In this document: positions 176-7,640 of the stretch, piece by piece | Layout: every line of letters begins with the position of its first letter | Numbering within the stretch: position 1 is the first letter of the stretch | NCBI GenBank assembly: GCA_026992695.1 | Contig: JALWYP010000497.1 | Span: forward strand, 1 to 10,593 | Length of the DNA stretch: 10,593 nt | From: Flavobacteriaceae bacterium | GTDB taxonomy: Bacteria > Bacteroidota > Bacteroidia > Flavobacteriales > Flavobacteriaceae | Direction of reading: 5' to 3' | Translations under genes and position numbers: made by a program | Notes under the pieces: model-generated | Databases searched by the model: none | What the model saw: the letters and a program-made list of their open reading frames with translations, nothing else | Told to the model about the DNA's origin: nothing

Positions 176-1996
176 ATGAAAAATAATATGTTGTTACTAA
201 TGCTTTTACTTATTAAAAAATACAAAAAAACAGTTTTGTTTTCGCTTATGTCGTTTGTTCTGTTATTAGGGGTTAGCTGCCAGAAAGAAGAAACCGAATA
301 TATAGACACTACAGATCAAGATACCATTACCGCCAATTCGGTAATAACAACTATTCTATCGAAAACTGTTCAAAACGAAGGTTCTTGGGATGATATTATA
401 GACGGTACATCTTGTGCCGCTGTGCAATACCCGCTAACGGTTATAGCCAATGGGCAGGAAGTACTATTACAGAATATAGAAGACATCCAACTTATTGTTG
501 CCATTTTTGCGCAATTTCCTAACGATACGGATACACTTGAAATAGTTTTTCCTATTACACTTATTATGTGGGATTATACAGAGGTTGAAGTAAACTCGCA
601 AGAAGAGCTTAATCAAATAATTACAAATTGCATTTCAAATGGACAAGGCAATAACGAAATTACCTGTATTAGTTTTCAATATCCAATTACTATTTATACT
701 TACAATTCTGCGCAAGAACAAACAGGAACCGTTGTGATAAATAGTGATTTTGAATTGTTCCAATTTCTTCAAAATCTGGATGAAAATGATGTGTATAGCC
801 TAGACTTTCCGGTAACGGTTATTTTAGATGACGGTTCTACACAAACCGTAAATAATACACAAGAATTGCAAGATTTAATAGAATCTTGTGAAAACAATAC
901 CAGTACTAACCCAGATCCAACACAATTTGAAACCGATTTAACTACCGGAGTTTGGTATGTAACTTATTATTTTAACGATTATGACGAGACCGATAATTAT
1001 CAAGACTACCAATTTACCTTTAACACAGATGGAAGTTCAACAGCATCTAACGGGAATGATACTGTAAATGGAAGCTGGAATTACCAAAATGATAGCACAC
1101 CCAAATTAGAATTGTATTACGGAACAACTTCTCCCTTTAACGAATTAGATGAGGATTGGGAAATTATAGAGGCGTCTACAGAGATTATAAAACTTAAAGA
1201 TATAAGTGGCGATGGGAGTATAAACTATCTAACTTTTGAACGTAACCCTAATACAACAGGTAGTAATGAAGATTTAAACAATTTAATACAATACCTTACT
1301 ACAGATTCTTGGTTTGTAAATTTAATGGATGATAGCGAAGAAGATAAAACTTGCAATTTTGTAGCTTATGAATTTAGTTTTGCTAGCAACGGTACGGCTC
1401 AAGCCGTTTCAACTTCAAATACCGTAACGGGTTTTTGGGCAGCTCAAATGAGTGACGGACAGTTAGAAGTTATTTTAAATTTTGATAGTGGAGGAAGTAA
1501 TGAAGCGTTTGGTAATCTTAATGACGATTGGGAGGTTTTGGTGTCTTCAAATACAGCTATTAATCTCAGAGATGTGAGTGGAGGAAACGGTGGAACCGAT
1601 TACTTAAATTTTGAAAGGAATCCTTATACCGGTTGTGGTGGCGGAGGAACTACAGCAGCTGATGTAGAAAATATACTACAAGACGGGCAATGGTTTGTTG
1701 CCAGCTACCTGGATGATGGTGTTGACGAAACTTCAGATTATGCAGGATATACAATTACTTTTATTAGTGGAGGTTCTGTATCAGCAACCAACGGAACCAA
1801 TACTAATTATGGAACTTGGTATGTTACAGGAAGTACCGGATCATTAGAATTGATACTAGATTTTGGTACAAGTAATCCCTTTGAAGGTATAAATGAAGAT
1901 TGGGATATTATTGAAGCATTAACTAATAAAATTACGCTTCAACACATAAGTGGCGGAGGCGGAGGAATTAATGATCTTATCTTAGAAAAATTATAA
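176..1996 (+). CDS. Multi-repeat surface lipoprotein with two Cys-bounded repeats and three lipocalin-like repeats
   Basis: The predicted 606-residue lipoprotein has a basic n-region (KKYKK, 14-18), a hydrophobic core and a lipobox-like GVSC ending at Cys35. The residues after it (Q-K-E-E-T-E) resemble the flavobacterial lipoprotein export signal first described in Capnocytophaga (QKDDE type), so a cell-surface location is likely. Residues 80-152 and 164-238 are two related repeats, each starting and ending with Cys. They share a (V/F)QYP(L/I)T motif, a second FP(I/V)T strand and a QEL segment before the closing Cys. Residues about 250-358, 365-485 and 497-606 are three copies of a lipocalin-like unit: an opening W strand, a second Trp strand (GSW, GFW, GTW), DDWE or EDW(E/D), then a Gly-rich turn and a final strand. 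Ligand and function are unknown. The start is uncertain, because Met5 (188) and Met9 (200) are also in frame and would leave the signal peptide intact. There is no Shine-Dalgarno sequence, as is usual in this phylum. Confidence 0.85.
   Translation: MKNNMLLLMLLLIKKYKKTVLFSLMSFVLLLGVSCQKEETEYIDTTDQDTITANSVITTILSKTVQNEGSWDDIIDGTSCAAVQYPLTVIANGQEVLLQNIEDIQLIVAIFAQFPNDTDTLEIVFPITLIMWDYTEVEVNSQEELNQIITNCISNGQGNNEITCISFQYPITIYTYNSAQEQTGTVVINSDFELFQFLQNLDENDVYSLDFPVTVILDDGSTQTVNNTQELQDLIESCENNTSTNPDPTQFETDLTTGVWYVTYYFNDYDETDNYQDYQFTFNTDGSSTASNGNDTVNGSWNYQNDSTPKLELYYGTTSPFNELDEDWEIIEASTEIIKLKDISGDGSINYLTFERNPNTTGSNEDLNNLIQYLTTDSWFVNLMDDSEEDKTCNFVAYEFSFASNGTAQAVSTSNTVTGFWAAQMSDGQLEVILNFDSGGSNEAFGNLNDDWEVLVSSNTAINLRDVSGGNGGTDYLNFERNPYTGCGGGGTTAADVENILQDGQWFVASYLDDGVDETSDYAGYTITFISGGSVSATNGTNTNYGTWYVTGSTGSLELILDFGTSNPFEGINEDWDIIEALTNKITLQHISGGGGGINDLILEKL
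413..889 (+). repeat. Two tandem Cys-bounded coding repeats
   Basis: The two units encode residues 80-152 and 164-238 of the lipoprotein. Each opens with C-x(3)-QYP, contains a second F-P-(I/V)-T-(L/V)-I strand, and closes with a QEL-x-x-(I/L)-I helix and Cys. The paired terminal cysteines suggest one disulfide per unit. The similarity is clear in the protein but not close at the DNA level, so this is an old duplication. Confidence 0.65.
923..1996 (+). repeat. Three tandem lipocalin-like coding repeats
   Basis: The units run roughly 923-1249, 1268-1630 and 1664-1993. Common anchors are G-x-W at the first strand (the second unit has SWF), a TF or SF strand followed by a small turn, a second Trp strand after T-V-x-G or an equivalent, the acidic (D/E)DW(E/D) motif, and a closing SGG turn. 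The 157-residue lipoprotein downstream carries a fourth copy. This pattern fits the lipocalin-like small lipoproteins of Bacteroidota. The family assignment is from memory of the pattern, not from a search. Confidence 0.65.
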
Positions 1997-2053: not shown

Positions 2054-2144
2054 GAAAACCGGTGGTTTTAAAATATGTAACCTCACAGCAAAGACCCATC
2101 GTAGAATGGCGAGCCTATTTTTGGTAAAATTACCGCCGGTTTTC
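2054..2144 (+). ncRNA. Candidate structured RNA between two lipoprotein genes
   Basis: A 13-base stem pairs 2054-2066 with 2132-2144 (GAAAACCGGTGGT with ACCGCCGGTTTTC, one G-U pair). It can extend through TTTTA/TAAAA (2066-2070 with 2125-2129) and AAATA/TATTT (2071-2075 with 2116-2120). Inside, CTC (2082-2084) can pair with GAG (2111-2113), and CCAT (2096-2099) with ATGG (2106-2109) around a short loop. The enclosed bases 2081-2115 are less AT-rich than the flanks, as expected of a conserved RNA core. No long T-run follows, so it is not a typical terminator. It could be a leader of the downstream lipoprotein gene, a 3' element of the upstream one, or an independent small RNA. A weak TTG-N18-ATTGTTTG pair (2010-2038) could start it. 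Flavo-1 is a named flavobacterial RNA family worth comparing, but I cannot confirm a match. The strand is inferred from the flanking genes. Confidence 0.45.
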
Positions 2145-2202: not shown

Positions 2203-2676
2203 ATGAAAAATCTAATTAAATTAACACTGACATTTTTATTATTAGGAGGATTTGTATCTTGTTCTACCTCTAATGATACTAATGATGACTCTTCTTCAAA
2301 TAATTCTTCTGAAAATGTTACACAAATTGAAAATACAGCAGAGTCCGGTACCTGGCGTATTACCTATTATTATGATTCTGACCACGAAGAAACTAACAAC
2401 TTTACAGGTTATAATTTTACGTTTAATTCAGACGGAAGTTTGATAGCTGAAAATGGAAATAGCACGGTTACCGGAACATGGTCTGTTACCGGAAGTAACT
2501 CAGGATCTTCATCAAGTGACGATAACCATTTTAATATCTTTTTTGCTGCTCCACCAAATTTTGAAAAACTTTCAGACGATTGGGAAATAGTAAATAGTTC
2601 ATCCAATAAAATTGAATTAAGAGATGTAAGTGGAGGTAATGGAGGAACTGATTATTTAACCTTTACAAAAAATTAG
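2203..2676 (+). CDS. Small lipoprotein with one lipocalin-like domain
   Basis: The 157-residue protein has a signal peptide (MKNLIKL then a Leu-rich core) ending in FVSC with Cys20. A Ser/Asn/Asp-rich linker (about 21-42) includes acidic residues near the lipidated Cys. Residues about 47-157 form one lipocalin-like repeat: GTW, ITYYYD, FTFNSDGS, TVTGTW, DDWEIV, then DVSGGNGGTDYL. It is a paralogue of the repeat units in the 606-residue lipoprotein 206 bases upstream. Its C-terminal third matches the second repeat there almost exactly, while the first half looks more like the first repeat. A Ser-rich insertion (about 100-108) lengthens one loop. The Bacteroidota family is generally annotated lipocalin-like with unknown ligand. 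It may be cotranscribed with the larger gene, and an intrinsic terminator follows its stop codon. Confidence 0.85.
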   Translation: MKNLIKLTLTFLLLGGFVSCSTSNDTNDDSSSNNSSENVTQIENTAESGTWRITYYYDSDHEETNNFTGYNFTFNSDGSLIAENGNSTVTGTWSVTGSNSGSSSSDDNHFNIFFAAPPNFEKLSDDWEIVNSSSNKIELRDVSGGNGGTDYLTFTKN

Positions 2677-2702
2677 GAGACCTACTTTTGCCCCAATTTG
2701 AG

Positions 2703-2739
2703 AACCATTTTACTATTTTTTTAGTAAAGTGGTTTTTTT
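2703..2739 (+). terminator. Intrinsic terminator after the small lipoprotein gene
   Basis: A 12-base stem pairs AACCATTTTACT (2703-2714) with AGTAAAGTGGTT (2723-2734), with one G-U pair and an 8-base T-rich loop. It runs into a T-tract (2733-2739). It lies 27 bases after the stop codon and separates the lipocalin-like pair from the next operon. Confidence 0.85.
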
Positions 2740-2760: not shown

Positions 2761-2853
2761 AATCAAAATTAACTTGTTTAAAGTTTAGTAAATAAAGATT
2801 AAAATGAAGTGGTAGTAACTAATAAACCAATAACTTTTAAAAACAAAAAAGAT

Positions 2854-3615
2854 TTGAAAAAAAAATTTATCATCCTAATTTATATTTTATCACAAAGTAT
2901 CTTCGCACAAGATATACCTTCCAAATTTTTAAACTTTTATAGTTATAATTTTGATTATAAGATTAATAAAAAAGTAAAGTTAAGAGCGGGAAATCTTTTT
3001 AGCTTTAATACAGAAGGCTATAAATTAAGTTTTGTTCAATTCAAGATAGGTGCAACGCTGAGATGGAACAAAAAACTTTCTTCCGATTTTTATTACAAAC
3101 CAATGCTTTTTAAAGGAGCTACAAAAAATATTTGGTATCATAGATTAAGTGCAAACCTCACTCATAGAAGCAAATTATTTAGGATGCCCTTGAAAAATAC
3201 AATTACCTCTGAAGTTTTTTCGCCAAGCCCTCGAAAACACAAATATCGTTTTATTTATACTGCAAAACTATCATTTAAAAACAAAGTATTACCCCTACGG
3301 GCTACACCCTACATAAAATACCAATTATATTACTATTTAGGTGGCATAAAAGTAAATTATTATGACGCTTCAGGAACGCAACTACTGGCTACTAATTCGC
3401 CAGATGGATTTCATCGGTACCGGTTAGGAACAGGAGTGCGTTTTAGACCTGTAAAGAAATTTTATGTTACCCTTTATTATATCTGGCAAGAAGAGTTTAA
3501 TATGAAATCTTCAAAAAACAGAGAACTCAATATCCCAAATCAAAGTCAAACCCGAATAATTAATCCGTTTAACGATTACCAAGTTGTAGGATTAAGTTTT
3601 AGTTATTCTATTTAA
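2854..3615 (+). CDS. DUF2490-like outer-membrane beta-barrel protein
   Basis: The predicted protein is 253 residues from a TTG start. I chose 2854 because the product then begins M-K-K-K, followed by a hydrophobic stretch and FAQ, an ideal signal peptide cleaved before Gln19. The longer GTG start at 2809 would add 15 polar residues in front of it. The mature protein is rich in alternating Tyr/Phe/Lys strands (KFLNFYSYNFDYKINKK, KLRAGNLFSF, FYVTLYYIWQEEFN) and ends in a strand with aromatic residues (SFSYSI), as expected of an outer-membrane barrel. Size and pattern fit DUF2490. No enzymatic motif is seen. It is the first gene of a plus-strand set and lies 22 bases before the P-loop gene, so it may be the outer-membrane exit or anchor for whatever that set handles. 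The barrel prediction is good; the family name is less certain. Confidence 0.65.
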   Translation: MKKKFIILIYILSQSIFAQDIPSKFLNFYSYNFDYKINKKVKLRAGNLFSFNTEGYKLSFVQFKIGATLRWNKKLSSDFYYKPMLFKGATKNIWYHRLSANLTHRSKLFRMPLKNTITSEVFSPSPRKHKYRFIYTAKLSFKNKVLPLRATPYIKYQLYYYLGGIKVNYYDASGTQLLATNSPDGFHRYRLGTGVRFRPVKKFYVTLYYIWQEEFNMKSSKNRELNIPNQSQTRIINPFNDYQVVGLSFSYSI

Positions 3616-3637: not shown

Positions 3638-4675
3638 ATGAAAATTAAAAGAACCATTATTTGTAAAGGATTATCCAACTATAAACTAAATAAAAAAATA
3701 AACAAAGTGTATACACCCAAAGCCGGTGATTTAGCTGTTTTTAAAGTGTTGGAGTTAGGAAAACACACCTCTCTTCAAGGCGAAAACGGAAACAACCTAT
3801 ATATTTTTCCGGGCGATTATATTATGGCAGCCTTTGGAAACCGATATGCAACCGATCAGTTTGAAGGTTATGTGCCTCGAGAATACCATAAAGAATACCA
3901 CGTATTAGGAAAAGGAGGAGCCATAGGTATTTTAGCATCTATGCATGCGAAACTGGAAGAGAAAGGTACTACCAATCTTCAATTAGTTGGATATGTAGTT
4001 GATGAAAATGATAACAACAATATTATAAACACGAAATATTTAAATAAAGAAAAAATTAAATTCAATCCTAATAAAAAACGTTCTTACCAAATTATTTTAT
4101 CGTTAGGATCTGCTATGGATAGTGGAAAAACTACTACGGCAGCATTTTTATCTAGAGGATTGCAAGCAGCAAAAAAGAAAGTAGCCTATATTAAACTTAC
4201 AGGAACGGTTTATACAAAAGACCGCCACTTGGTTAGAGATTGTGGTGCAGATTTAGCTATCGATTTTTCTACCTATGGTTTTCCTTCTACGTACCTGTGT
4301 ACAAGACAAGAAATGCTGGACTTACATGAAACGCTTCTCACGCAAGCAGAAAAAATAAATCCCGATTACGTTATTATTGAAATTGCGGACGGGTTATTAC
4401 AACGCGAAACAGCCATGCTTTTAAAAAATGCTAAGTTTATGTCGCAAATAAATGGAGTCGTTTTTTCGGCAGCTGATAGTTTGGGAATCCTTTCCGGGAT
4501 ACAATTACTCAAACAACAAGGTATTCGACCCCTTGCTGTAAGTGGTTTGTTTACTGCTAGCCCATTATTAATAAATGAAGTAGAAGGGGTTATTAATTAT
4601 CCGATATTAACTTTAGAAAAATTGGCAGAACCAAGTGTTTTAACTATCTTAGAAAAAAATGTTAAAGCTGCATGA
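3638..4675 (+). CDS. Two-domain P-loop NTPase-fold protein, distantly DUF1611-like
   Basis: The 345-residue protein has no signal peptide or membrane segment, so it is cytoplasmic. Residues about 1-140 form a beta-rich N-terminal domain with a striking GDYIMAAFGNRYATDQFEGY motif (59-78). Residues about 150-335 form a P-loop domain. Its Walker A is GSAMDSGKTT (157-166, Lys164). TGT follows at 188-190, then a GADLAIDF segment (about 203-210), and EIADGLLQRE (248-257) where an acidic metal- or substrate-binding motif would lie. This order resembles DUF1611 proteins and, more remotely, dethiobiotin synthetase and MobB. DUF1611 includes DgcN, reported as a D-glutamate N-acetyltransferase, but the usual dipeptide-epimerase partner gene is absent here. 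The last 4 bases overlap the ABC gene (ATGA), implying translational coupling and a shared pathway. I infer ATP-dependent modification of a small molecule; the substrate is unknown. Confidence 0.7.
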   Translation: MKIKRTIICKGLSNYKLNKKINKVYTPKAGDLAVFKVLELGKHTSLQGENGNNLYIFPGDYIMAAFGNRYATDQFEGYVPREYHKEYHVLGKGGAIGILASMHAKLEEKGTTNLQLVGYVVDENDNNNIINTKYLNKEKIKFNPNKKRSYQIILSLGSAMDSGKTTTAAFLSRGLQAAKKKVAYIKLTGTVYTKDRHLVRDCGADLAIDFSTYGFPSTYLCTRQEMLDLHETLLTQAEKINPDYVIIEIADGLLQRETAMLLKNAKFMSQINGVVFSAADSLGILSGIQLLKQQGIRPLAVSGLFTASPLLINEVEGVINYPILTLEKLAEPSVLTILEKNVKAA

Positions 4676-6366
4676 AGAGTGCCCAAACACAAAAATGGGA
4701 ATTAATTAAATGGTTTCTAAGCAAGCACAAAATACTATTTGTGTTTACCATTGCTTACGGAATTTTAGCAAACTTGTTTGTAATACTTATTCCGGTAAGT
4801 TTAGGAAAGTTTTTCGATTTTTTATTTGGCTATCAGTCACATCGAGCAGCTTATTTGGATAAACTACCATTTTCGTTTTGGGACACCATGCCTCATTATT
4901 TGTGGTTTTTAACAGCACTTATTGTGTTGCGGTTTATATTTCAATTTTTACAACGTTATTATACGGCTGTTTTAGGCGAAAAATTTGTAAAAGAACTACG
5001 CGAAAAACTTTTTGTACAACAACTTAAAATTCACACAGAGGTATATGATGATAGAGGTACAGGGAGGTATTTGCTTAGGCATAGTGGCGATTTAAAAAGT
5101 ATTCAAAACTATTTAACCAGAGGAATTATACGTTTTGCTACCGATGTAATTTTATTACTTATGGCAATTCTGTTTTTGTTAAGTATAAATACCACTGTTT
5201 TTTTAGTCATTACATTAGGTTTTGTTTTTACGGTGATTGTGGTTTACTTTTTAAATAAAACGCTCTTTAAAACCTCTGTAAAAAGACGAAATACTCGCTC
5301 CGGATTACTCTCTTTTGTAAGCCGCCAGTTACAAACTACAAAGGCAATTAAAGCCTTTAACAAAGAAGCAACCGAAATTGGGAAATACAACAAAAGATCT
5401 TTAAAACTATACCAATCTAGCGTTGCGTTTCAAAAAATATACAACTTAATATACACACTAATACCCGCTCTTTTATATGGTGTACTGGTTGTTGTTTTGT
5501 TCTATATATACGAAATAAAATTGCAAGAAAAAACATTGTTTAATGCTGGCGAAATGTTAGGATTTATATTGCTTTTTATAACAATTTTACCAATTTTTAG
5601 GCGTGTAATACGAGTTGCAACCGTTTGGGAATTGGGCAACATTTCGTTTGGTAAATTAATAAATGTATTTCACCTTCCTACCGAAATACCGATACAGTCC
5701 AAAAAACCTTTTATATTCAAAAAAGGAGAACTGGTTTTTAAAAATGTCTCGTTTTCTTATAAAGATGAACAACACTTGTTTAAAAACTTAAATTTTAAAG
5801 TTAAACCCAATTTCATAAATCAAATTAAATTAAGCAATGGTCAAGGAAAAACTACGCTAGTAAAACTTTTAGCCGGTTTGTATTTGCCAAATAAAGGTGA
5901 AATTTTTTACGATAACCAACCCATATCACAATTAGATATAAAATCGCTACGAAAAAAAGTAACCTTTGTTTCTGATGAATTTTCATTAATTGGAAAAACC
6001 GTTTTTGAAGTTATTTCGTACAGTCGAAGTAAAGAAAAACGTGTAAAAGCCCAACAAATCATCGATTATTTTCAAAATAATATTCCTTCTTCAATGAAGC
6101 TCTCTTTAGACGATAAAGTAAAAGAAAGAGGTTTAAACTTGTCTAAATCACAAAAGAAAATGCTTTTGTATGCTAGAGCTGCACTATCTAATAAACCTAT
6201 TATTGTAATCGAAGAGCCCATTCGTAATTTAGAAAAAAATACCAAAAAAAATATTCTAACGTGGCTATCGGAAGTAAAAAATAAAAAAACAATTGTGTTT
6301 TTGTGTTACACTTGGCGCGAACCCATTGTAAAAATAGATCACGTTATTTCAATTCCAAAACAATAA
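4672..6366 (+). CDS. Exporter-type ABC half-transporter with a degenerate nucleotide-binding domain
   Basis: The 564-residue protein has an N-terminal domain with about six membrane helices (near 23-47, 76-98, 152-172, 175-197, 255-278 and 288-310), the fold of type IV (MsbA-like) exporters. A C-terminal ATPase domain spans about 345-564. The fold is clear but its motifs are eroded. Walker A is LSNGQGKT (387-394) with Leu for the first Gly. The Q-loop Gln is replaced by Asp435. The signature LSGGQ reads LSKSQ (490-494). The Walker B Asp is Glu514. The D-loop reads RNLE (518-521). The H-loop His is Tyr546. Walker A Lys393, the catalytic Glu515 and the A-loop Tyr363 remain. There is no premature stop, so the gene seems under selection. 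ATP binding is plausible, but hydrolysis may be weak or absent. It overlaps the P-loop gene by 4 bases and is followed 11 bases later by a lipoprotein gene. Its cargo is unknown. Confidence 0.85.
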   Translation: MKSAQTQKWELIKWFLSKHKILFVFTIAYGILANLFVILIPVSLGKFFDFLFGYQSHRAAYLDKLPFSFWDTMPHYLWFLTALIVLRFIFQFLQRYYTAVLGEKFVKELREKLFVQQLKIHTEVYDDRGTGRYLLRHSGDLKSIQNYLTRGIIRFATDVILLLMAILFLLSINTTVFLVITLGFVFTVIVVYFLNKTLFKTSVKRRNTRSGLLSFVSRQLQTTKAIKAFNKEATEIGKYNKRSLKLYQSSVAFQKIYNLIYTLIPALLYGVLVVVLFYIYEIKLQEKTLFNAGEMLGFILLFITILPIFRRVIRVATVWELGNISFGKLINVFHLPTEIPIQSKKPFIFKKGELVFKNVSFSYKDEQHLFKNLNFKVKPNFINQIKLSNGQGKTTLVKLLAGLYLPNKGEIFYDNQPISQLDIKSLRKKVTFVSDEFSLIGKTVFEVISYSRSKEKRVKAQQIIDYFQNNIPSSMKLSLDDKVKERGLNLSKSQKKMLLYARAALSNKPIIVIEEPIRNLEKNTKKNILTWLSEVKNKKTIVFLCYTWREPIVKIDHVISIPKQ

Positions 6367-6377
6367 ATTTTGCACTT

Positions 6378-7640
6378 ATGAAACGTCTTAAATTTCAATT
6401 TTTAACTCTCATTGTTTTACTTATAACGCTATTTGCTTCTTGCGAAAAAGATATGGTTATTCTTACCGGATTACTTCCTACTTACACAATTGAAGATGTA
6501 ACGGTGCAAGGACAAAATCTTAAAAAAATAACAGGAAGTATTAACGAGTCTATTACTTTAAGCAATAGCAATTCCTATTTGTTAAGCGGAATTGTATTTG
6601 TAGAGGATACACTAACCATAGAACCCGGAACGATTATTTATGCAGAAACAAGCCCCTTAACAGCTTTGGTAATAAACCGTAAGGCAAGATTAGAAGCAAT
6701 CGGAACAGCAACAGCTCCTATTGTTTTTACTTCGGTAAACGAAATTCAAGGAAATGGACAAAGCGGCGATTGGGGAGGCATTCATATTAACGGTCAAGCA
6801 TCTTTAAATACAAGAAGTACAGCTCTGGTAGATATTATTGGTAAGTACGGAAGAACCGATAACTTAGTAAACGACGAAGATAATTCCGGTGTAATGAAAT
6901 ACCTTCGAGTAGAGTTTGCAGGCAAAGATGTAAATGGTTCTGCAGGAGCCTTCAATTTAAACGCGGTAGGAAGCGAAACTCAAATTGAATATCTACAAAC
7001 CTATAAATCTAGCGGACAAGGAATACGTTTTAGAGGAGGTAAAGCCCGTTTAAAATATGCTTTAGCAACACAAACCATTGGTAAAGGATATCGTTGGGAT
7101 GCCGGCTGGCGTGGATATGGTCAATTTTGGATAGTAAACTATACCCAAGCCGTTCAAGACACCTTAATTGCTATTGAAGGACGAAGCGGTGCACCTAACG
7201 ACCCGCCCGTTTCGGCTCCCATACTCTCTAATATTACTATTGTAGGAATGGGAAACACCGGTGCAGATCCGCAAGTAAGAGGTATTCGGTTTAGAGATTC
7301 TACCTTGGGAAAGGTGTATAACTCCATTATCACTCAATGCCGCCGTGCAGTAAGAGCAGATTATTCGCAGTCTACTATTGATGCAGGAACCTTAGTTTTT
7401 GCCAATAATAATTTATTTTACAATCAACCCGATTATTATGTAGGTGCTTCAGGCGACACTTCAGTTTTTGGATTGCCACAATACAATAACACTACAAATG
7501 TGGTTTCCATGAATGGCTATATTGGAACTGATACAGGAGGAACTTTTTCTGTACAAACTATCGATAGTTGGTTTAATACGATAAATTATAAAGGGGCAGT
7601 TCCTTCGGGAAACAATTGGACACAGGGCTGGACGAGGTAA
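6378..7640 (+). CDS. Right-handed parallel beta-helix lipoprotein
   Basis: The protein is 420 residues from the ATG at 6378. A longer frame from a TTG at 6303 would overlap the ABC gene and bury the signal peptide, so I rejected it. The signal peptide is MKRLKFQF plus a Leu/Ile core, ending in LFASC with Cys22. The following E-K-D is compatible with surface export. From about residue 50 the protein shows the Bacteroidota pattern L-x-G-x-V-x-V-x-(D/G)-T-L-x-I-x-P-G-T, then APIVFTS, GDWGGI and many short Gly/Asn turns, which indicates a beta-helix. No C-terminal type IX sorting domain is seen, so lipid anchoring is the likely attachment. Such proteins bind or process polysaccharides or act as adhesins, and no catalytic residues can be assigned. 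It is the last gene of the four-gene set, 11 bases after the ABC gene. Confidence 0.8.
   Translation: MKRLKFQFLTLIVLLITLFASCEKDMVILTGLLPTYTIEDVTVQGQNLKKITGSINESITLSNSNSYLLSGIVFVEDTLTIEPGTIIYAETSPLTALVINRKARLEAIGTATAPIVFTSVNEIQGNGQSGDWGGIHINGQASLNTRSTALVDIIGKYGRTDNLVNDEDNSGVMKYLRVEFAGKDVNGSAGAFNLNAVGSETQIEYLQTYKSSGQGIRFRGGKARLKYALATQTIGKGYRWDAGWRGYGQFWIVNYTQAVQDTLIAIEGRSGAPNDPPVSAPILSNITIVGMGNTGADPQVRGIRFRDSTLGKVYNSIITQCRRAVRADYSQSTIDAGTLVFANNNLFYNQPDYYVGASGDTSVFGLPQYNNTTNVVSMNGYIGTDTGGTFSVQTIDSWFNTINYKGAVPSGNNWTQGWTR

Follow-up and report, generated by a model that had tools for sequence, protein, structure and literature searches.

The window analysed here, one entire contig of 10,593 bases (JALWYP010000497.1), comes from a member of the Flavobacteriaceae whose genome assembly is fragmented and 83% complete. 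The + strand carries a cassette of three genes coding for a DUF2490-like barrel, a P-loop protein and a protein with the fold of an ATP-binding cassette (ABC) exporter, consisting of a transmembrane domain (TMD) and a degenerate nucleotide-binding domain (NBD). The subject of this analysis is the exporter, its altered ATPase motifs, and the source of energy it may use. The cassette and the motifs of the exporter are located as follows.

2809..3615, + strand: DUF2490-like outer-membrane barrel gene, the first of the cassette (PF10677, E 2.4e-4, under the Pfam cut-off)
3638..4675, + strand: DUF1611-like P-loop protein, 345 amino acids, with an intact Walker A (DSGKT, residues 161-165)
4672..4675, + strand: ATGA overlap of the stop codon of the P-loop gene with the start codon of the ABC gene
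4672..6366, + strand: ABC-exporter-fold protein, 564 amino acids, TMD and degenerate NBD (translation of the open reading frame)
5062..5091, + strand: GRYLLRHSGD (residues 131-140), signature of the family, on the loop that joins transmembrane helices TM2 and TM3, at the presumed position of coupling helix 1 (AF2 model and alignment)
5143..5145, + strand: Asp158, aligned with Glu149 in transmembrane helix 3 of E. coli MsbA (alignment)
5830..5856, + strand: Walker A LSNGQGKTT, with Leu387 for the first Gly and with Lys393 intact (sequence)
5974..5976, + strand: Q-loop position, Asp435 (sequence; Gln in 1/131 relatives)
6139..6153, + strand: signature motif LSKSQ, residues 490-494 (sequence)
6199..6216, + strand: Walker B IIVIEE, with Glu514 for the Asp and with Glu515 intact (sequence)
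6307..6309, + strand: H-loop position, Tyr546 (sequence; His in 4/131 relatives)

The exporter matches the Pfam families ABC_membrane (PF00664, E 4e-30, 105.9 bits) and ABC_tran (PF00005, E 6.4e-19, 69.4 bits). It has the TMD and the fused NBD of ABC fold found in type IV ABC exporters (ABCB/MsbA-like), and lacks their complete ATPase motif set (Walker A, Q-loop, signature, Walker B and H-loop). The model predicted with AF2 retains the whole fold including the NBD; it matches the transporter fold over its full length (535 residues) with TmrAB as the best match. The residues named in an earlier sequence-only reading of this DNA (Y363, L387, K393, D435, LSKSQ at 490-494, E514, E515 and Y546) are all exactly where it had placed them.

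The family used for comparison consists of the 120 nearest of 1988 exporter homologues and 11 distinct exporters from fetched loci, that is 131 rows; some counts are based on 135 rows, from which four near-repeats were later dropped. The 30 controls are 29 ordinary exporters from 17 of the 18 genomes searched (the window's own was excluded), being the better-scoring of roughly 100 PF00664 matches, plus the exporter of locus L049 from genome G442. All five of the residues K393, Q435, D514, E515 and H546 occur together in 30/30 controls and in 0/131 relatives. Within the family Lys393 is kept in 121 rows, Asp514 in 87, Glu515 in 72, His546 in 4 and Gln435 in 1, and the loss of the Q-loop and H-loop residues is therefore a trait of the family.

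The 17 nearest proteins (P0001-P0017) all have Ile or Leu at position 387 and Asp or Glu at 435, with Lys at 492 in 15/17 and Ser at 493 in 16/17; position 546 is never His and is variable (Arg in eight, Lys in five, and Tyr, Ser, Asn and Gln in one each). Most of the replacements are therefore old. The sequence-only reading had proposed to look for conservation of each replaced residue in the clade, and most of them are indeed shared, but the Walker B change from Asp to Glu is confined to a few members (Glu514 in 2/17, and in 29/135 rows of the wider family), next to a Glu515 present in 17/17. Canonical motifs in sister species, which it had named as the sign of recent decay, were found in none of the 131 relatives examined.

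A scan of contigs gave one near copy (L032, 97%) and 8 distant matches; an alignment search in 296 genomes of the order, with 4 candidates scored for each genome shown, matched only the window. Compared with L032 the exporter gene has a ratio of nonsynonymous to synonymous substitution rates (dN/dS) of 0.107, based on 60 substitutions in total (TMD 0.094, NBD 0.149); the P-loop gene has 0.106, the barrel gene 0.181 and the E1 gene 0.076. The value of 0.107 indicates purifying selection on the exporter and hence a protein in use. A recent decay to a pseudogene was rejected on the open frame, this dN/dS value and the family-wide pattern, and judged from the sequences the altered ATPase is not of recent date.

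The lead of the NBD over the TMD in conservation shrinks stepwise with the loss of motifs. NBD identity exceeds TMD identity in 435/435 pairs of controls, as against 19% of 9045 family pairs (135 rows). At comparable TMD identity, NBD minus TMD identity is +0.16 in the controls and -0.02 in family members with Lys, Asp and Glu all present; it is -0.06 in those with the Lys but not both Asp and Glu, and -0.12 in those lacking the Lys, the last value coming from 6 pairs only.

A tree of the TMD contains 89 rows after thinning, including 25 of the 30 controls and 10 of the 44 proteins without NBD which are described below; four of its rows are long and of unsure placement, among them F_L069 beside the NBD-less clade. 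Family and NBD-less rows are grouped against the controls with support 100/100. On this tree the Walker A Lys must have changed at least 5 times, the Walker B Asp at least 10 times and the catalytic Glu at least 11 times; we read these changes as repeated losses, although such counts do not separate gain from loss. Walker A is unrecognisable in five genomes (G128, G130 and G058, also G1236 and G1086). In two genomes of the same genus (99 and 97% complete) the P-loop gene found no match at E up to 1e-30, so the distribution is patchy.

In genomes G532 and G1416 the reading frame of the exporter (353 and 365 codons) does not extend beyond the TMD, and the gene adjoining it is again the P-loop gene; genes in the fetched loci were taken as frames from stop to stop, and their starts are therefore not fixed. 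Searching with the G532 product returned 53 proteins. Of these, 43 are 334-384 amino acids long and match PF00664 only; the other 10 are longer and have both domains. The 43 together with the G1416 protein make up the NBD-less set of 44, with names that include Algoriphagus and Cyclobacterium, and the 10 rows left after thinning form one clade with support 100/99. When ten NBDs were searched against the neighbourhoods of the G532 and G1416 genes only matches at chance level were obtained, none of them convincing; the best (E 0.005, 44 amino acids) lies about 3 kb upstream of the G1416 gene, antisense to another frame, and the positive control reached 6e-47. It should be noted that annotations like "ABC transporter ATP-binding protein", which even the NBD-less member from Algoriphagus kandeliae bears, are misleading with respect to energy.

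These observations bear on two of the explanations put forward in the sequence-only reading. One was that the protein is half of a heterodimer with a partner encoded elsewhere, which would be the canonical half. Degenerate sites are common in heterodimeric exporters (PMC7756269), and other PF00664 exporters exist in 17/18 genomes (E up to 1e-12), the 29 examined and that of L049 all being canonical. A second exporter half was found in 0/18 loci within the stretches fetched, and one and the same chain has lost Walker-side and signature-side motifs alike. A half without NBD would in our judgement be odd in such a pair, and a distant partner would not explain the NBD-less clade. We thus find the heterodimer unsupported and very unlikely.

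The other explanation is that ATP is bound without fast hydrolysis, so that binding at Walker A would by itself be enough to close the dimer, or to gate a channel or a slow transporter. The Walker A Lys in 121/131 relatives and E515 in 72/131, the NBD fold retained in the model and the NBD dN/dS of 0.149 all fit this explanation. It cannot be general, because the Lys needs at least 5 changes on the tree and because in one clade the entire NBD is absent from cassettes with the same P-loop gene. We regard it as unlikely for the family, though it may hold for members with K393 and E515, such as the window protein. For the window protein itself ATP binding in a regulatory role is possible, since the whole fold, K393 and E515 are kept there, without Gln and His.

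The membrane part has been conserved with features of its own. Residues Q117, Y133, L135, G139 and K328 are present in 130-131 of 131 family rows and in 44/44 NBD-less proteins, and in 0/30 controls; for Y133 and G139 the family count is 131/131 each. In the AF2 model TM2 and TM3 are separated by a short helix (residues 131-134), at the place which we assign to coupling helix 1. Its motif is nearly unchanged in the NBD-less clade (Y133 and R136 both 44/44), where the region of coupling helix 2 (residues 223-228) has drifted. Intracellular loop 1 (ICL1) is the best conserved TMD segment of the family (3.16 bits) and nearly the best in the NBD-less clade (3.42 bits, compared to 3.44 for TM6).

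A conserved membrane part with ICL1 as its most conserved segment, in a cassette that has genes of two membranes, could also be expected if the protein were not a pump at all and served as a scaffold, a scramblase or a channel within an envelope complex that includes the DUF2490 barrel. This is improbable in our opinion, as the transporter fold extends across 535 residues and charges are conserved at positions of the MsbA chamber, namely R/K87, D158 and R310. Position 87 corresponds to MsbA R78 and is basic in 107/131 family rows and 44/44 NBD-less proteins; position 310 corresponds to MsbA K299 and is basic in 130/131 and 44/44. Because of these basic residues, the sequences suggest an anionic cargo.

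The P-loop gene precedes the exporter gene in 18/18 loci, and in 14/18 the DUF2490 barrel gene lies upstream of the P-loop gene; PF10677 is above cut-off in 3/4 tested relatives of the barrel at the same place in other loci. The proposal that the adjacent P-loop protein is a functional partner is strengthened by this constancy. Its alignment was made from the 120 best of 2955 matches, of which 80 were used together with 5 sequences from the loci. The protein scores 11.6 bits with the Pfam family DUF1611, below the cut-off of 25, and a sequence search of the PDB with the alignment gave nothing below E 0.2. By its fold the P-loop domain groups with dethiobiotin synthetase, CTP synthetase and DUF1611/DgcN, and the SRP GTPase Ffh and HypB come next by a small margin; it shares the fold of DUF1611/DgcN, and its best matches are dethiobiotin synthetases. 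Sequence identity to DUF1611/DgcN and dethiobiotin synthetase is about 15%, and the N-terminal part, which is beta-rich in the P-loop protein, is barely covered by the fold comparison before about residue 146. On the predicted fold the protein is more likely an enzyme than a motor, but the fold by itself is not decisive.

A motor function has to be considered, for the P-loop protein could be a non-ABC NTPase (dethiobiotin-synthetase/DUF1611-like) driving the exporter homodimer in trans from a docking site at coupling helix 1, the fused NBD having become redundant and been lost. To our knowledge this would be the first transporter of exporter fold driven by a non-ABC ATPase. We give such an exchange of motors little credence: P-loop relatives occur without any exporter in 7/7 loci of type B and have M20 peptidases as neighbours in 12 distant loci, dethiobiotin synthetases match the fold best, and coupling helix 2 has diverged in the NBD-less clade.

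Relatives of the P-loop gene are found in several other settings. Distant ones (25-31% identity; L016-L027 and L052), for which M20-peptidase-like genes adjoin in 12/12 loci (checked with Pfam in 4), may belong to an uncharacterised pathway; that of L052 is also near AstE/AspA-like and GCS2/CBS proteins. At L049 (G442) the genes that come after a related P-loop gene code for a canonical exporter, a DUF2490 barrel and a PGA_cap protein. This TMD falls among the ordinary exporters on the tree, on a long branch; L049 was therefore not treated as an ortholog or as the ancestral state, and the pairing of P-loop gene and exporter in G442 perhaps arose independently.

Textbooks treat primary (ATP-driven) and secondary (gradient-driven) transport as opposites. 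The reading which we prefer, with a probability of about 0.55, is that the family are alternating-access transporters of ABC-exporter fold in which hydrolysis by the NBD is no longer needed, coupled to a gradient of protons or of the cargo and serving the P-loop enzyme. In scattered Bacteroidota the ATP-burning engine has worn out, and in one branch it has gone entirely, with the membrane part and the neighbouring enzyme conserved; another source of power is therefore probable. The third suggestion of the sequence-only reading, a transporter powered in another way, gains support from the NBD-less sister clade, the repeated change of the Walker A Lys and the NBD conservation being weaker than in ordinary exporters.

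In such a transporter the TMD dimer would alternate its access, energised by the proton gradient or the cargo's own gradient. A candidate proton carrier is the invariant acid D158, which three alignments place on E. coli MsbA E149: position 158 is Asp in 131/131 family rows and Asp or Glu in 44/44 NBD-less proteins, so acidic in 175/175 altogether. MsbA without its NBD transports ethidium on a pH gradient, and the triple mutant D41N/E149Q/D252N is inactive (PMC4979069). The NBD remaining in the window protein (K393, E515) may still bind ATP and act as a regulator or a clamp of the dimer. The cargo would be substrate or product of the cytoplasmic P-loop enzyme, presumably an acidic small molecule, perhaps of the beta-aspartyl type; it would cross the inner membrane by the transporter and the outer membrane through the DUF2490 barrel, inward or outward, and in some species an exported isoaspartyl peptidase may act on it in the periplasm.

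Several observations weigh against this proposal. The NBD in the lineage of the window is still constrained (dN/dS 0.149, from only 16 substitutions), and some ATP turnover is possible in the 57/131 relatives which retain K393, D514 and E515 together. ICL1 is the best conserved TMD segment in the controls as well (2.54 bits), and part of its conservation is therefore structural. An acid at position 158 is found in 18/30 controls and in MsbA too, and the counterparts of MsbA D41 and D252 are not conserved in the family, so that proton coupling through D158 is only suggested. The isoaspartyl peptidase link is seen in only 6/18 loci, the window not being one of them. Finally, MsbA without NBD failed to rescue growth in place of MsbA (PMC8660845).

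SbmA offers the closest parallel: it is a TMD driven by protons that derives from an ABC exporter, its published origin being a YddA-like exporter after loss of the NBD (PMC13316013). In the literature covered, SbmA is the sole case of an ABC exporter thought to have turned into a secondary transporter. SbmA/BacA, the SLiPT group of secondary peptide transporters, are alike to the NBD-less clade in having a type IV exporter TMD without NBD. The TMD family is a different one: two NBD-less members, the G130 protein and the window protein all match PF00664, and gave no match to the SbmA_BacA model at E up to 1. Coupling helices are absent from SLiPTs according to the same paper (PMC13316013), whereas coupling helix 1 is kept in the present family, and chains with intermediate decay of the NBD survive. 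The proton drive of SLiPTs uses a glutamate ladder; here there is one invariant acid (D158), and proton coupling can only be suggested from the sequences. We class the present case as a variant of this kind of event and not as membership in the SLiPTs.

From MsbA and the engineered MsbA-MD the family differs in that the ATPase of MsbA works and that the loss here is natural; MsbA D41, D252, R148 and R296 are without a constant match in the family. TM287/288, TAP and TmrAB, the last being the best fold match, have altered Walker B, signature and H-loop motifs in common with the window protein (PMC7756269). They keep one canonical site per pair, whereas no adjacent partner was found here and the cassette's single exporter chain has lost both Q-loop and H-loop. 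Among open-licence papers on degenerate or NBD-less exporters, SbmA, DUF2490/DUF1611, DgcN, cyanophycin and these genera, no title or beginning of an abstract was on this family. Altered motifs, a missing Walker A and a missing NBD are among many coexisting stages of one cassette in living, partly cultured Bacteroidota, which makes it possible to test directly and in parallel in what order the steps came, where the energy is drawn from and what the coupling helices do.

Other neighbours of the cassette may be mentioned. Isoaspartyl peptidases near it have hydrophobic N-terminal leaders in 6/6 loci, and those at P-loop loci without transporter have none in 7/7. G1417 has three copies of a pair of P-loop and isoaspartyl peptidase genes (L084, L085 and L087), two of them in closely alike surroundings. 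In G130 and G786 a CphA gene, a Peptidase_S51 gene and an Asparaginase_2 gene make up a complete cyanophycin set, and in G1236 CphA occurs with an S51 gene (L127, L128 and L129 in all); cyanophycin as the general cargo was rejected, with full CphA in only 5/23 genomes. Near or inside the cassette there is a DCC1-like protein in G833, G1357 and G1433 (with an HTTM domain in L064), and a TPR-CHAT protein in G833, G1433 and G1416 (L064, L080, L081 and L082 in all).

The remainder of the window contains the following features.

176..1996 and 2203..2676, + strand: lipoprotein-like genes, with a repeated domain in common by eye (three copies versus one) and no Pfam family above cut-off
about 2054..2144, + strand: 13-pair stem closing the spacer that separates the two lipoprotein-like genes (-30 kcal/mol for the spacer as a whole, z -2.6)
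2700..2737, + strand: terminator-like hairpin ahead of the cassette, after the lipoprotein-like gene that precedes it, with a 16-pair stem and a T tail (consensus match only)
6381..7640, + strand: protein of 419 amino acids without Pfam match, 3' of the exporter gene

Rfam gave zero matches in the window, the stem in the lipoprotein-gene spacer included. The protein of 419 amino acids has a 60% identical gene at the equivalent place in G786.
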